Below are positions 2,902-5,909 of a stretch of DNA of 7,154 nucleotides, in pieces (position 1 is the stretch's first letter; every line of letters starts with the position of its first letter). Location: the NCBI GenBank assembly GCA_023130215.1, contig JAGMAN010000026.1, positions 1-7,154 on the forward strand, in the 5' to 3' direction. A program made the translations under genes and the position numbers. Source of the DNA: a bacterium. GTDB lineage: Bacteria > NPL-UPA2 > JAGMAN01. The notes beneath the pieces were generated by a model that saw only the letters and a program-made list of their open reading frames with translations, did not search any database and was not told the DNA's origin.

Positions 2902-3699
2902 ATGTTAGTGGTTGGAGAGAGAATTAACACTTCCAGGAAGAGCGTCCTGGAGGCAGTGAAGAAGAAGGATGCTCATTTCATTCAGGAGGAAGCCGCCAGG
3001 CAGGTGAAAGCAGGAGCTAATATGATTGACATTAACGCCGGCAATTTAATGGAAGGGGAGGCCTCCTCCATAGAATGGTTGGTCGGGATTGTGCAAGGTG
3101 TGGTGGATACTCCACTTTGCCTGGACAGTCCCAATCCGCAGGCCATTAAGGCTGGCGTGAAGCTGCACCGGGGTAAGGCCCTGGTTAATTCCATAACGGC
3201 GGAGAAGGAAAGAGCTAAAGCTGTCTTGCCTCTGGTCAAGGAATACAAAGCCTCAGTGGTTGCTCTCACTATGGATGAGAAGGGAATGCCGGAGACGAGC
3301 CGTGAGAGAGTGAAGATTGCCCGCCGTCTACTGGAGCTTACCAGAAATTATGGGATTCCACCCCAGGATGTCTATTTCGACCCCCTGGTTCGTCCTGTCG
3401 GCAGTGAGGCAGGGCAGGGATTGGCTGTCCTAAGAGCAATTGAAGGGATTATGTCTTTGGGGGAAGGTGTCCATACCATTTGCGGCCTGAGCAATATCTC
3501 CTTTGGACTTCCCAATAGACGTTTGCTCAATCGCACCTTTCTGTCCATGGCTATAGAGGCTGGTCTGGATGCGGTCATCCTTGACCCATTAGACAAAAAT
3601 CTTATGGCCACCTTGAAGGCGGCTGAAGCGCTGCTCGGCAAGGATGAATTCTGCATGAAGTACATAACTGCTTCTCGGGAAGGTGAACTGAATGTCTGA
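2902..3699 (+). CDS. Methyltetrahydrofolate:corrinoid methyltransferase, AcsE-like (pterin-binding TIM barrel)
   Basis: The 265-aa product matches the pterin-binding (dihydropteroate synthase-like) family and is about the length of Moorella AcsE. It begins with LVVGERIN (residues 2-9). It keeps pterin-contact residues at D75 (CLDS), N96 (VNS), D160 (FDPL) and N198 (GLSN). As I recall Moorella AcsE, these match its D75, N96, D160 and N199. The C-terminal NRTFLSMAIEAGLDAVI stretch is also characteristic. AcsE moves the methyl group of methyl-THF to the cobalt of the corrinoid Fe-S protein in the Wood-Ljungdahl pathway. Paralogues serve other corrinoid proteins, and no partner is in the window, so the acceptor is inferred. 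The start has GAGGAGG (2888-2894) 7 nt upstream. Its last 8 bases overlap moaC, implying coupled translation. It is not a true folP: the GERIN and DPL pattern fits methyltransferases better. Confidence 0.87.
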   Translation: MLVVGERINTSRKSVLEAVKKKDAHFIQEEAARQVKAGANMIDINAGNLMEGEASSIEWLVGIVQGVVDTPLCLDSPNPQAIKAGVKLHRGKALVNSITAEKERAKAVLPLVKEYKASVVALTMDEKGMPETSRERVKIARRLLELTRNYGIPPQDVYFDPLVRPVGSEAGQGLAVLRAIEGIMSLGEGVHTICGLSNISFGLPNRRLLNRTFLSMAIEAGLDAVILDPLDKNLMATLKAAEALLGKDEFCMKYITASREGELNV

Positions 3700-4135
3700 T
3701 ATAAATATGGTGGACATCACGGCTAAGCCAATGACTGAACGCTCCGCCTTGGCTAGAGGGATAGTCTCCATGAAGAAAAGAACAATAGGGATGATTAAAG
3801 AGGGTGAGATTGCAAAGGGAGATGTGCTGGCGGTAGCTAAGGTGGCTGGAATACTGGCCGCAAAACGAACAGCCCTGTTCATCCCTCTCTGCCATCCCTT
3901 GAATATAACTCATGCTGACATTAGTTTCAAGTTTAGAAAGGACGCTGTGGAGATAGAAAGTGTAGTAAAGTTAAATGGAAAGACGGGGGCGGAGATGGAG
4001 GCCCTCAGCGCCGTAGCCGTAGCTGCTCTCACCATCTACGATATGTGTAAAGCGGTTGATAAAGAAATGACCATCTCCCGGGTTAGATTAATAAAGAAGA
4101 CTGGCGGAAGGAGTGGAGATTTCATCAGGCGGTGA
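3692..4135 (+). CDS. moaC: Cyclic pyranopterin monophosphate synthase MoaC
   Basis: The 147-aa protein is full length for MoaC. Conserved blocks are MVDIT at residues 6-10, AKVAGILAAKRT at 49-60, the LCHPL motif at 66-70, KTGAEMEALSA at 97-107, YDMCKA at 116-121 and the C-terminal KKTGGRSGDF. These hold the Lys, His, Glu, Asp and Lys residues of the active site. With MoaA, MoaC turns GTP into cyclic pyranopterin monophosphate, the first stable intermediate of molybdenum or tungsten cofactor synthesis in the cytosol. ATG 3692 lies inside the end of the methyltransferase gene (8-nt overlap). A GGAAGGTGA Shine-Dalgarno at 3678-3686, within the upstream gene, supports this start. The GTGA overlap with the next gene indicates continued coupling. 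No moaA, moaE, moaD or moeA is present here, so the pathway must be completed elsewhere. Confidence 0.97.
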   Translation: MSDINMVDITAKPMTERSALARGIVSMKKRTIGMIKEGEIAKGDVLAVAKVAGILAAKRTALFIPLCHPLNITHADISFKFRKDAVEIESVVKLNGKTGAEMEALSAVAVAALTIYDMCKAVDKEMTISRVRLIKKTGGRSGDFIRR

Positions 4136-4599
4136 AAGGGAAAATTCTATCAATTAACATCAGCACCAAAAAGGGTATTCCCAAAAGTCCGGTTAAGGAG
4201 TGCAATTTGAAAGAGGATTGGGGACTGGCAGGAGACATTCATTCTGGTCCAGGGGAGAGGCAGGTGAGCCTCCTGGCCTGGGAAAGCATTAGGAAGTTTA
4301 GCGAAAAAAAACTGAAATGCCCAAAGATTAAATTTGAGCAGGAGGAGCTTAAGCCGGGCGATTTTGCCGAGAACATAACTACCCGAAAAATGAGGTTATC
4401 CGTGTTACCCATTGGAACAAGACTTAGAATGGGAGACAAGGCTATGATAGAGATAACTAAAATCGGGAAGGGCTGCCACCGTCGCTGTTCCATCTATCGT
4501 AGAATGGGAGACTGCATTATGCCTAAGGAGGGAGTATTTGCCAGAGTGATTAAAGGTGGTCCTGTCATGGTGAGCGACGAAATTGAAGTGTTAAAATGA
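4132..4599 (+). CDS. MOSC-domain protein (molybdenum cofactor sulfurase C-terminal-like)
   Basis: The 155-aa stand-alone MOSC domain shows GDIHSGPGERQVSLLA at residues 34-49, PGDFAENITT at 75-84, LPIGTRLRMGD at 92-102, and a cysteine region with C115, C119 and C128 followed by IMPKEGVFARV. The cysteine after the GKG turn (C115) is the one conserved in MOSC proteins and is thought to carry sulfur or contact cofactor. MOSC proteins are linked to sulfuration or delivery of Mo/W cofactor; the exact reaction of short bacterial ones is not settled. Translation starts at GTG 4132, whose bases overlap the moaC stop (GTGA). The only nearby Shine-Dalgarno (AAGGAG, 4108-4113) is about 18 nt away, so the start probably depends on ribosomes finishing moaC. 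Its stop overlaps the mogA start by 4 nt. MOSC next to or fused with MogA is a familiar arrangement. Confidence 0.95.
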   Translation: MKGKILSINISTKKGIPKSPVKECNLKEDWGLAGDIHSGPGERQVSLLAWESIRKFSEKKLKCPKIKFEQEELKPGDFAENITTRKMRLSVLPIGTRLRMGDKAMIEITKIGKGCHRRCSIYRRMGDCIMPKEGVFARVIKGGPVMVSDEIEVLK

Positions 4600-5090
4600 T
4601 CAAGGTGGGAATAATCACGATAAGCGATAAGGTCTCAGAAGGGAAGAGAGAGGATAGAAGCGGCAAATTAATAAAGGAGCTAATCAGTCAGATGGGTGCT
4701 CAAGTAGTAAAGCAGGAAATAGTTTCCGACGAGAGGAAGGAAATTGAGGAGAAATTAAAAGAACTATCTGATATTCTAAGGGTGGACCTCGTTCTGACTA
4801 CAGGGGGCACAGGCTTAAGCCCACGAGACAATACTCCTGAAGCGACCGCTTCGGTCATTGATAAGGAAATCCCCGGGCTAACTGAGACCATGCGGCTGCG
4901 AGGCCTTGACTTTACTCCCTTTGCCATTCTCTCCAGGGCAAAGTCTGGAATAAGAGCTAAAACCTTGATCATTAATCTTCCCGGCAGTCCGGAAGGGGCA
5001 GAACAGTCTCTTCGGACCATCCTGCCAGCTATTCCCCACGCTGTAGAGGTCCTGCGAGGAGAGGCAAAAAGAGAGCAGGCTAATTCTTGA
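4596..5090 (+). CDS. mogA: Molybdopterin adenylyltransferase, MogA/MoaB family
   Basis: The 164-aa protein has the family's nucleotide/molybdopterin-binding motif TTGGTGLSPRDNTPEAT at residues 68-84 and the second motif NLPGSPEGA at 127-135. It opens with the usual VGIITISDKVSEGKREDRSG strand and loop. The enzyme adenylylates molybdopterin to MPT-AMP before MoeA inserts molybdate or tungstate. MoaB and MogA cannot be separated safely from sequence alone; the pairing with MOSC favours the MogA role. The start ATG 4596 overlaps the MOSC stop (ATGA), with a weak GAAGTG Shine-Dalgarno at 4585-4590. The end of the gene (from 5073 to the TGA at 5088-5090) forms part of a hairpin that probably serves the convergent small gene. 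It closes the plus-strand cofactor unit. Confidence 0.95.
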   Translation: MIKVGIITISDKVSEGKREDRSGKLIKELISQMGAQVVKQEIVSDERKEIEEKLKELSDILRVDLVLTTGGTGLSPRDNTPEATASVIDKEIPGLTETMRLRGLDFTPFAILSRAKSGIRAKTLIINLPGSPEGAEQSLRTILPAIPHAVEVLRGEAKREQANS

Positions 5091-5108
5091 AAAAGATTTA
5101 ACCTGCTC
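5066..5108 (-). terminator. Probable rho-independent terminator of the 52-aa gene, overlapping the mogA 3' end
   Basis: Read on the minus strand, a 36-nt hairpin (5108 to 5073) has a perfect 7-bp stem GAGCAGG/CCTGCTC, then a U:G pair, 3 bp, one A:A mismatch and 4 bp closing a tetraloop. It is followed by TCTTTTT (5072-5066). On the plus strand the same hairpin has a C:A mismatch instead of the wobble and is followed by A-rich sequence, so it should act mainly on minus-strand transcripts. It lies 11 nt past the stop codon of the small basic gene. The plus-strand arms cover the last codons of mogA, so terminator and coding sequence are shared. Confidence 0.6.
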
Positions 5109-5119
5109 AAAAGAAAAAA

Positions 5120-5278
5120 TTATCTTCTTCTCTTCTTGGCTTTCTTTTTCTTCGCCTTCTTCTTTTTCTTCTTTCCCCCTCGAGCCATCTTGGCTCTGGA
5201 GATATCACCGGCTTTGTCCACGAAGTAAAGATAGCCGGACACCTTCCTAACTCCTACTTTTGCGACTTTCTCGGCCAT
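5120..5278 (-). CDS. Small Lys/Arg-rich basic protein, 52 aa, function unknown
   Basis: The minus strand encodes an uninterrupted 52-codon frame from ATG (5278-5276) to TAA (5122-5120). The first 35 residues form a compact region containing KVGVRKVSGYLYFVDKAGD and ISRAKMARGG. The last 17 residues are almost pure cation: K6-A-K4-A-K2-R3, 12 Lys and 3 Arg. The Lys/Ala tail resembles tails of histone H1-like or extended HU proteins, so nucleic-acid binding is inferred, not shown. I have an uncertain memory of short proteins with a YLYF(I/V)DKxGDISR core in other uncultured bacteria, but no named family. It is real rather than chance because it carries a full cassette: sigma70-like promoter, 60-nt leader with a hairpin, an 11-nt Shine-Dalgarno 8 nt from the ATG, and a terminator-like hairpin. 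It lies downstream of leuD on the same strand but has its own promoter. Confidence 0.85.
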   Translation of the reverse strand: MAEKVAKVGVRKVSGYLYFVDKAGDISRAKMARGGKKKKKKAKKKKAKKRRR

Positions 5279-5286
5279 TTCTTTCA

Positions 5287-5297
5287 ATCACCTCCTT
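5287..5297 (-). promoter_or_regulatory. Exceptionally strong Shine-Dalgarno of the 52-aa gene
   Basis: The minus strand reads AAGGAGGTGAT, complementary over all 11 bases to the usual bacterial 16S rRNA 3' end (ATCACCTCCTT). It sits 8 nt before ATG 5278. It is clearly longer than the ribosome sites of the other genes in the window, which match 5 to 7 bases. This fixes the start codon and suggests high translation. Confidence 0.85.
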
Positions 5298-5302
5298 CTG
5301 CA

Positions 5303-5322
5303 ACGATACCCTTTGGCATCGT
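5303..5322 (-). other. 5'-UTR RNA hairpin just upstream of the small gene's Shine-Dalgarno
   Basis: In the minus-strand transcript the arms ACGATGCC and GGTATCGT pair over 8 positions around an AAAG tetraloop. The sixth pair is G:U in this RNA but would be an A:C mismatch in the opposite transcript, which argues the structure belongs to the minus-strand leader. It ends 5 nt before the Shine-Dalgarno and does not cover it. It could stabilise the 5' end, keep the ribosome site open or bind a regulator; which of these applies cannot be decided here. Confidence 0.6.
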
Positions 5323-5345
5323 CCATTTATTTTTCATCCGTATAG

Positions 5346-5374
5346 AGTTTACCACATTCCTCTATATAAGTCAA
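5346..5374 (-). promoter_or_regulatory. Sigma70-like promoter of the 52-aa gene
   Basis: On the minus strand, -35 TTGACT (5374-5369) and -10 TAAACT (5351-5346) are separated by exactly 17 nt. Immediately upstream (5375-5402) lie long T and A runs resembling an UP element. The expected transcription start, near 5339, gives a leader of about 60 nt holding the hairpin and Shine-Dalgarno. The A/T tracts begin right after the leuD stop codon, so leuD and this gene are packed tightly, with no hairpin terminator between them that I could find. Confidence 0.8.
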
Positions 5375-5402: not shown

Positions 5403-5882
5403 TTATTTCTTCCTCACATAGTTCATCAGTCCACCAGAGGCAATAATCTTCTGCATAAATTCTGGAAAGGGTTGAGAGGCCCAAACCCCGTCGCTGTTTA
5501 AGTCCTTAATCTTGCCACTGGGAAGGTCCACTTCAACCAGGTCGCCCTCCTTTATACCCCGGGCGGCTTGAGGGCACTCCAAGATAGGAAGTCCAATGTT
5601 AATAGAATTGCGATAGAAGATGCGGGCAAAACTCTCAGCAATGAGGCAGGAAATTCCCGCTCCTTTGATGGCCAGGGGAGCATGCTCCCTTGAGGAGCCA
5701 CAGCCGAAGTTCCGACCGGCTACAATGATATCACCTTCACTGACTTTCTTCGGGAAATCCTCATCTATCCCCTCCAGACAATGCCTCGCCAGTACCTCAG
5801 GGTCGGTAGTATTCAGGTAGGAAGCAGGGATAATCTCATCGGTATTTACATTATCGCCAAATTTCCAGACCCTGCCTTGCAT
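5403..5882 (-). CDS. leuD: 3-isopropylmalate dehydratase small subunit (LeuD)
   Basis: The 159-aa protein is the swivelling small subunit of an aconitase-type isomerase. With LeuC it interconverts 2- and 3-isopropylmalate in leucine synthesis. Motifs are [11 protein letters not shown] (residues 9-19), YLNT (22-25), [14 protein letters not shown] (56-69, with the catalytic Ser-Arg) and [15 protein letters not shown] (85-99). The YLxx segment sets substrate choice in this family: homoaconitase-type archaeal subunits have YLRT, whereas YLNT is, from memory, common in bacterial LeuD. Homoaconitase or citraconate-type activity cannot be fully excluded. I chose ATG 5882 over GTG 5888 because the GGGG-containing Shine-Dalgarno (AGGGG, 5893-5889) is 6 nt from the ATG but abuts the GTG. 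leuC is not adjacent in this window, which is unusual for the pair. Confidence 0.92.
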
Positions 5883-5909
5883 TTTCACCCCTTTCTCATC
5901 CTCGATTTT

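Follow-up and report, generated by a model that had tools for sequence, protein, structure and literature searches.

A new family of small Lys/Arg-rich proteins from bacteria, archaea and phages, with a predicted role in nucleic-acid binding

In the window analysed here – a 7,154-nt stretch of DNA, contig 56 of a bacterial genome assembled to 1.01 Mb in 136 contigs at approximately 90% completeness – a short open reading frame occupies positions 5120–5278 of the minus strand. It runs from an ATG at 5278 to a TAA at 5122–5120 (the stop codon being included in these coordinates) and encodes a product of 52 aa, MAEKVAKVGVRKVSGYLYFVDKAGDISRAKMARGGKKKKKKAKKKKAKKRRR. The protein falls into two parts: a conserved unit, residues 1–35 (MAEKVAKVGVRKVSGYLYFVDKAGDISRAKMARGG; 5174–5278, minus strand), which contains the residues that are invariant among 64 units of the family described below, and a Lys/Arg tail, residues 36–52 (5123–5173, minus strand), which comprises 15 Lys or Arg residues and two Ala and which varies in length among relatives with its charge retained. 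The original prediction of a small Lys/Arg-rich gene in this gap, with a nearly pure Lys/Arg tail, is borne out both by the frame itself and by homologues with E-values down to 3e-18 in seven other genomes of the same phylum. Judged from the sequence, the frame is a real, selected gene with its own transcription unit.

On one side, the small gene is flanked by mogA (4596–5090, plus strand), which encodes a MoCF_biosynth-domain protein and converges on it; on the other, upstream and on the same strand, lies leuD (5403–5888, minus strand), encoding a LeuD-type dehydratase small subunit. On the plus strand (3692–5090), a moaC-like frame, a gene for a MOSC-domain protein and mogA itself overlap head to tail in what is a compact molybdenum-cofactor operon. 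An Rfam search of the window gave no match.

The most striking feature of the gene is its Shine–Dalgarno sequence, AGAAGGAGGTGAT (5287–5299, minus strand), with 13 contiguous pairs and a predicted pairing energy of −20.8 kcal/mol, against −4.7 to −12.5 kcal/mol in nine other genes of the window, as computed with the canonical 16S end, from which the host's own may differ. Expression signals far above those of the neighbours had been proposed, and for translation the comparison upholds this, extending it to the bacterial relatives: the family mean at 52 bacterial loci is −18.1 kcal/mol, compared with −7.5 kcal/mol for 252 neighbouring long frames – each scored with its best start codon, which favours the neighbours – and only 0.4% of these reach the family median. 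Within a common set of genomes, the median for the family (−18.5 kcal/mol, n=30, with the value for G722 taken from a near-identical relative) also exceeds in strength those for HU (−13.0, n=12; p 2e-4) and ribosomal protein L27 (−12.3, n=15; p 5e-6), the sets being unpaired by genome and the start pattern being recognised at only 12 of 30 HU and 15 of 20 L27 loci. The Omnitrophota phylum contributed 20 two-unit genes, all of them at −18 to −25 kcal/mol, and at archaeal loci the family reaches −12.7 kcal/mol against −7.2 for neighbours. Throughout, this energy is a proxy for translation rather than a measure of abundance. As a side observation, a search for bL27 (PF01016) at E 1e-10 gave no match in seven of the nine two-unit Omnitrophota-phylum genomes covered (G504, G493, G466, G527, G454, G532 and G407), through loss, divergence or incompleteness.

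The signals for transcription are of more uneven strength. A sigma-70-type promoter-like site, TTGACT-17-TAAACT with TGG before the −10 element (5346–5374, minus strand), agrees with the consensus at nine of 12 positions. Since the site is not significant on its own – one was found in the window against 0.6 expected from shuffling – its first description as near-consensus was too generous; what stands is the 17-nt spacing and its recurrence, as TTGAC[AT]-17-TA with TGG before the −10 element, 71–103 nt upstream of the gene in three relatives from other families of the phylum (TTGACT-17-TAATTT in G003, TTGACT-17-TAGTTT in G006 and TTGACA-17-TATTTT in G008). Another relative, G005, has TTGCAC-17-TATAAT upstream, and the upstream region in G004 has no good promoter-like site. 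Directly before the Shine–Dalgarno sequence, a stable leader hairpin (5300–5326, minus strand) with a ACGATGCC stem and an AAAG loop has a fold z of −2.8; no counterpart is evident in the G003 relative.

Behind the gene, an intrinsic terminator (5065–5108, minus strand) consists of a 15-bp hairpin (11+4 bp; 5108–5073) with a UUUU loop (−19.9 kcal/mol, z −5.8), followed by the T-run CTCTTTTT, and overlaps the last codons of mogA at its 3′ end. A consensus terminator scan of the window missed this hairpin, probably because of its internal loop. The anticipated terminator is accordingly in place, and hairpins with T-rich runs, differing in sequence, also lie behind the related genes of G003, G005, G006 and G008.

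In a scan of named genomes, the unit – with the 35-aa consensus EKVAKVGVKKxxGYLYFVDKxGD[IV]SRAKMARGG – was matched at no fewer than 495 places, the best 80 of which include matches in Woesearchaeota, Nanoarchaeota, Aenigmatarchaeota, Omnitrophota, Elusimicrobia/Endomicrobia, WOR-1, Auribacterota and one bacterium of the PVC group. Homologues occur in eight of the nine sampled genomes of the window's own phylum (one of the eight, G001, having broken copies only), in 107 of 193 genomes of the Omnitrophota phylum, in all five of a small Elusimicrobia-derived phylum, in 212 of 279 of the Woesearchaeota phylum and in 27 of approximately 377 other bacterial genomes sampled outside the window's phylum. 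A lack of homologues in related genomes, which had been named as a reason to abandon the gene, is thus contradicted within the phylum and beyond. The two-unit forms, the archaeal branch and the phage copies described below go further than the original prediction had expected.

Gly15, Tyr18, Asp21, Gly24 and Met31 are invariant among 64 diverse units, and Val5, Gly9, Lys12, Tyr16, Leu17, Phe19, Lys22, Ala29, Arg33 and Gly34 nearly so; the window protein has them all. Bacterial and archaeal units are about 70–90% identical. Between the window gene and its own-phylum relatives, dN is 0.07–0.12 with dS saturated; the pooled dN/dS of the unit is 0.22, and a comparison of G005 with G007 shows five synonymous and zero non-synonymous changes. 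By these substitution patterns, the unit is under purifying selection, and the expected picture of 35 conserved first residues, a Lys/Arg tail of variable length and a low dN/dS (about 0.2) is what the family presents. The broken copies in G001, a genome of the same genus, lie at L008:1501–1641 and L013:1501–1590: in one, TGA replaces the codon for the invariant Gly15, and the other ends after GYLYF. Each follows the end of an RsbW-like ATPase frame, within a common 185-nt block with 85% identity. In another phylum, one genome (G046) holds three diverged paralogues (MGEVIMKSAVKREKGYMYYVDGKGNLCRAKMARGG...) at L010, L012 and L016, in differing contexts.

Among the relatives checked, only G003 shares the mogA/leuD synteny (mogA being 63%, leuD 71% and the small protein approximately 80% identical), and no recurrent neighbour conserved across phyla was found. 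Deducing the function from an operon partner was therefore rejected, as neighbourhoods differ between lineages – as expected of a stand-alone housekeeping or packaging protein. Assignment to a known family by profile fared no better: neither the window protein nor its relatives have a significant match in Pfam or NCBIfam, searches that included PHROGs gave sub-threshold scatter only, and profiles A1 and A2 yielded chance matches alone (E 0.7 or more) among PDB sequences. One PHROGs entry without an assigned function, phrog_9154, recurs at E 0.003–0.2, mainly with the phage copies; a distant relationship to the family is possible. Members are presumably deposited in public databases as 'hypothetical protein', and no paper describing them was found in the open-licence literature; judged against that literature, they are best filed as a new, undescribed family of small basic proteins, itself a known kind of protein.

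Two architectures recur. One unit followed by a tail is found in the window's phylum, in part of Omnitrophota and Elusimicrobia and in a few Woesearchaeota; most Woesearchaeota and many Omnitrophota have two units in tandem, some with a tail and some without. Among 120 distinct proteins, 46 of 47 one-unit forms but only 33 of 73 with two units have a tail of at least six residues, as though the tail could be replaced by a second unit. The tails, the longest being of KKKAKKK or KRKTTKR type, range from almost none to more than 100 residues and consist of approximately 68% Lys plus Arg whatever the GC content, with less than 1% acidic residues. With rising GC, tail Lys falls (Spearman −0.27) and Arg rises (+0.33), p-values here being approximate because some loci hold the same gene twice. 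The sum staying constant as the two residues drift argues for selection on the positive charge of the tail, the unit being held residue by residue.

Divergent copies with one or two units occur in seven viral contigs (L170–L176); as these copies lack a long Lys/Arg tail, charge alone is not the whole function. Some of them lie near replication, recombination or terminase-like genes, the roles being read by eye (terminase-like in L174, exonuclease-like in L172, primase/helicase-like in L176). A search of plasmids gave no match, and one of annotated phages chance matches only. As to exchange between the domains, a tree of the two-unit forms does not reject the archaea as a single clade (p-AU 0.45), the alignment of 76 columns being too short for interdomain transfer to be provable in this way.

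AlphaFold2 models of the unit, built from 64 units, show a hairpin (strands at residues 16–20 and 26–30) with low-information helices at a mean pLDDT of 75. As this is a hairpin only, at modest confidence, the 'globular' start first ascribed to the protein is doubtful for a single unit. For a two-unit protein, the model has eight short strands at a pLDDT of 61, a value low enough for its Foldseek matches to beta-propeller blades (BamB, 2yms; E 0.1–0.9) to be judged meaningless. Foldseek gave no fold match to a DNA-binding protein (best E 0.76), and VIA-align no Z of 2 or more. The LxxFVDxxGxV hairpin presumably looks like those of the swapped-hairpin proteins AbrB and SpoVT; SpoVT was in fact the best Foldseek match, but its E of 0.76 and TM of 0.34 are no evidence of kinship. 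In the modelled register, Tyr16, Tyr18, Arg28 and Lys30 would lie on one face of the hairpin and Leu17, Phe19, Ala29 and Met31 on the other, the first being a putative aromatic and basic binding face and the second a hydrophobic pairing face; a working module would therefore be formed by two units.

How does the family compare with known small basic proteins? Besides AlgP, the lysine-rich H1-like proteins include Chlamydia Hc1/Hc2, Bordetella BpH1 and the tails of mycobacterial HU. Like the family, AlgP and its kin have a conserved N-terminal part that continues into a disordered tail, rich in Lys and variable in length. AlgP itself is described as DNA-binding; its N-terminal domain spans 124 aa and is putatively helical, its H1-like, lysine-rich tail is made of KPAA repeats, and the protein is found on polyphosphate granules (PMC9239181). 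In the new family, by contrast, a 35-aa beta-hairpin unit without Pfam relation forms the conserved part and is often duplicated in tandem.

Cren7 and Sul7 are tiny and basic, as is the family protein. They are monomeric DNA benders, described as confined to Crenarchaeota (PMC6136690). Profiles A1 and A2 gave no Cren7 or Sul7 match below E 0.7 among PDB sequences, their chains are absent among the 50 Foldseek matches listed, and VIA-align again gave no Z of 2 or more; a relation at the level of fold is weakly tested by these comparisons because the structure model is of modest confidence. By analogy, we infer that the family would work like H1-like AlgP and like Cren7/Sul7, belonging by sequence to none of them.

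With HU and the archaeal histones, the family shares its proposed role in DNA packaging and the genomes in which it occurs, but not its sequence or predicted fold: the HU/IHF profile (Bac_DNA_binding, PF00216) matches neither the window protein nor 27 two-unit relatives, the archaeal histone profile (PF00808) gives no match, and the modelled structures have a beta-hairpin but lack a histone fold. Of 38 bacterial genomes, nearly all of which carry the family (G002, with no match to it, is among them), 35 have HU, as does the window's genome, which is one of these, so that replacement of HU was rejected. Replacement of histones was rejected likewise, given that PF00808 and the family occur together in 168 of 279 archaeal genomes, a positive association (odds ratio 2.3, p 0.009) that is partly a completeness effect. 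With HU and histones present in the same genomes, the protein shows no sign of substituting for either.

Overall, the protein may well have an architectural role, binding nucleic acid as an abundant nucleoid-associated protein that works in addition to HU and histones. Its breadth of occurrence, the constraint on the unit, the conserved charge of the tail and the strong Shine–Dalgarno sequences speak for this reading; the coexistence with HU and histones, the lack of a fold match to any DNA-binding protein and the tail-less phage copies speak against it. Two units, supplied either by a homodimer of two one-unit proteins or by a single tandem chain, would come together as a small beta-sheet, and its conserved aromatic (Tyr16, Tyr18) and basic (Arg28, Lys30, Arg33) side chains would contact nucleic acid. 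The disordered Lys/Arg tail would add a non-specific electrostatic grip, much as the tails of H1-like proteins do, and the protein would be made in quantity alongside HU in bacteria or histones in archaea, supplementing both. The invariant Asp21, Gly24 and Met31 suggest, in addition, a specific partner beyond charge.

The main rival to this nucleoid model is a ribosome- or RNA-associated role – whether as a hibernation factor, an RNA chaperone or an additional ribosomal protein specific to these lineages – with the Lys/Arg tail threading into rRNA and the hairpin docking on the surface. A very short basic protein with extreme conservation and expression signals at least equal to those of a ribosomal protein fits such a role, as does its RGG-K/R end, which resembles the tails of small ribosomal proteins. 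Nonetheless, we consider it unlikely: presence is patchy (107/193, 212/279 and 27/~377 genomes), the unit keeps its 70–90% identity between bacteria and archaea though their ribosomes differ, and ribosomal proteins have a set length, unlike tails of almost none to more than 100 residues. The alternation of one and two units and the tail-less phage copies also speak against it. Neither a known ribosomal family (Pfam, NCBIfam) nor a conserved location in a ribosomal operon was found, and no ribosomal gene is prominent, by eye, among recurrent neighbours.

More improbable still is an AlgP- or PhaF-like organiser of polyanions other than the genome, binding polyphosphate or condensates, whose tail would hold polyphosphate or DNA and whose unit would bind a granule or partner. 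AlgP provides the precedent, joining an N-terminal domain to a lysine-rich tail, binding DNA and being located on polyphosphate granules (PMC9239181), and the invariant Asp21, Gly24 and Met31 would suit a specific protein contact; against this, the unit matches no Pfam family, the tails lack the KPAA repeat and no link to polyphosphate genes was noticed in the general neighbourhood listing. A non-functional frame in low-complexity A/G-rich sequence near a terminator – conceivable in that poly-Lys codons (AAG/AAA runs) arise easily and the same-genus G001 has two broken copies only – is already refuted by hundreds of homologues whose conservation extends beyond the low-complexity part, by a dN/dS of about 0.2 and by the purely synonymous differences between G005 and G007.

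Beyond the nucleoid-associated role itself, a broader and distinctly tentative reading would see here an unrecognised chromatin-like or RNA-coating class, in which a 35-aa beta-hairpin unit is combined with a Lys/Arg tail or a tandem partner. Its members would rank with the most heavily translated proteins in Omnitrophota-type bacteria and be shared with DPANN archaea by interdomain exchange, and the tail-less versions in phages could compete with the host protein.

If made as heavily as its signals suggest, the protein would be a major undescribed component of the cell in several phyla and two domains of life, whose carriers are mostly uncultured and the organisation of whose small genomes is hardly known. 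A unit found in bacteria, archaea and phages would be a case of a shared nucleic-acid-packing module. Whatever its role, a family present in three quarters of the sampled Woesearchaeota-type genomes merits a name and a Pfam/NCBIfam model.
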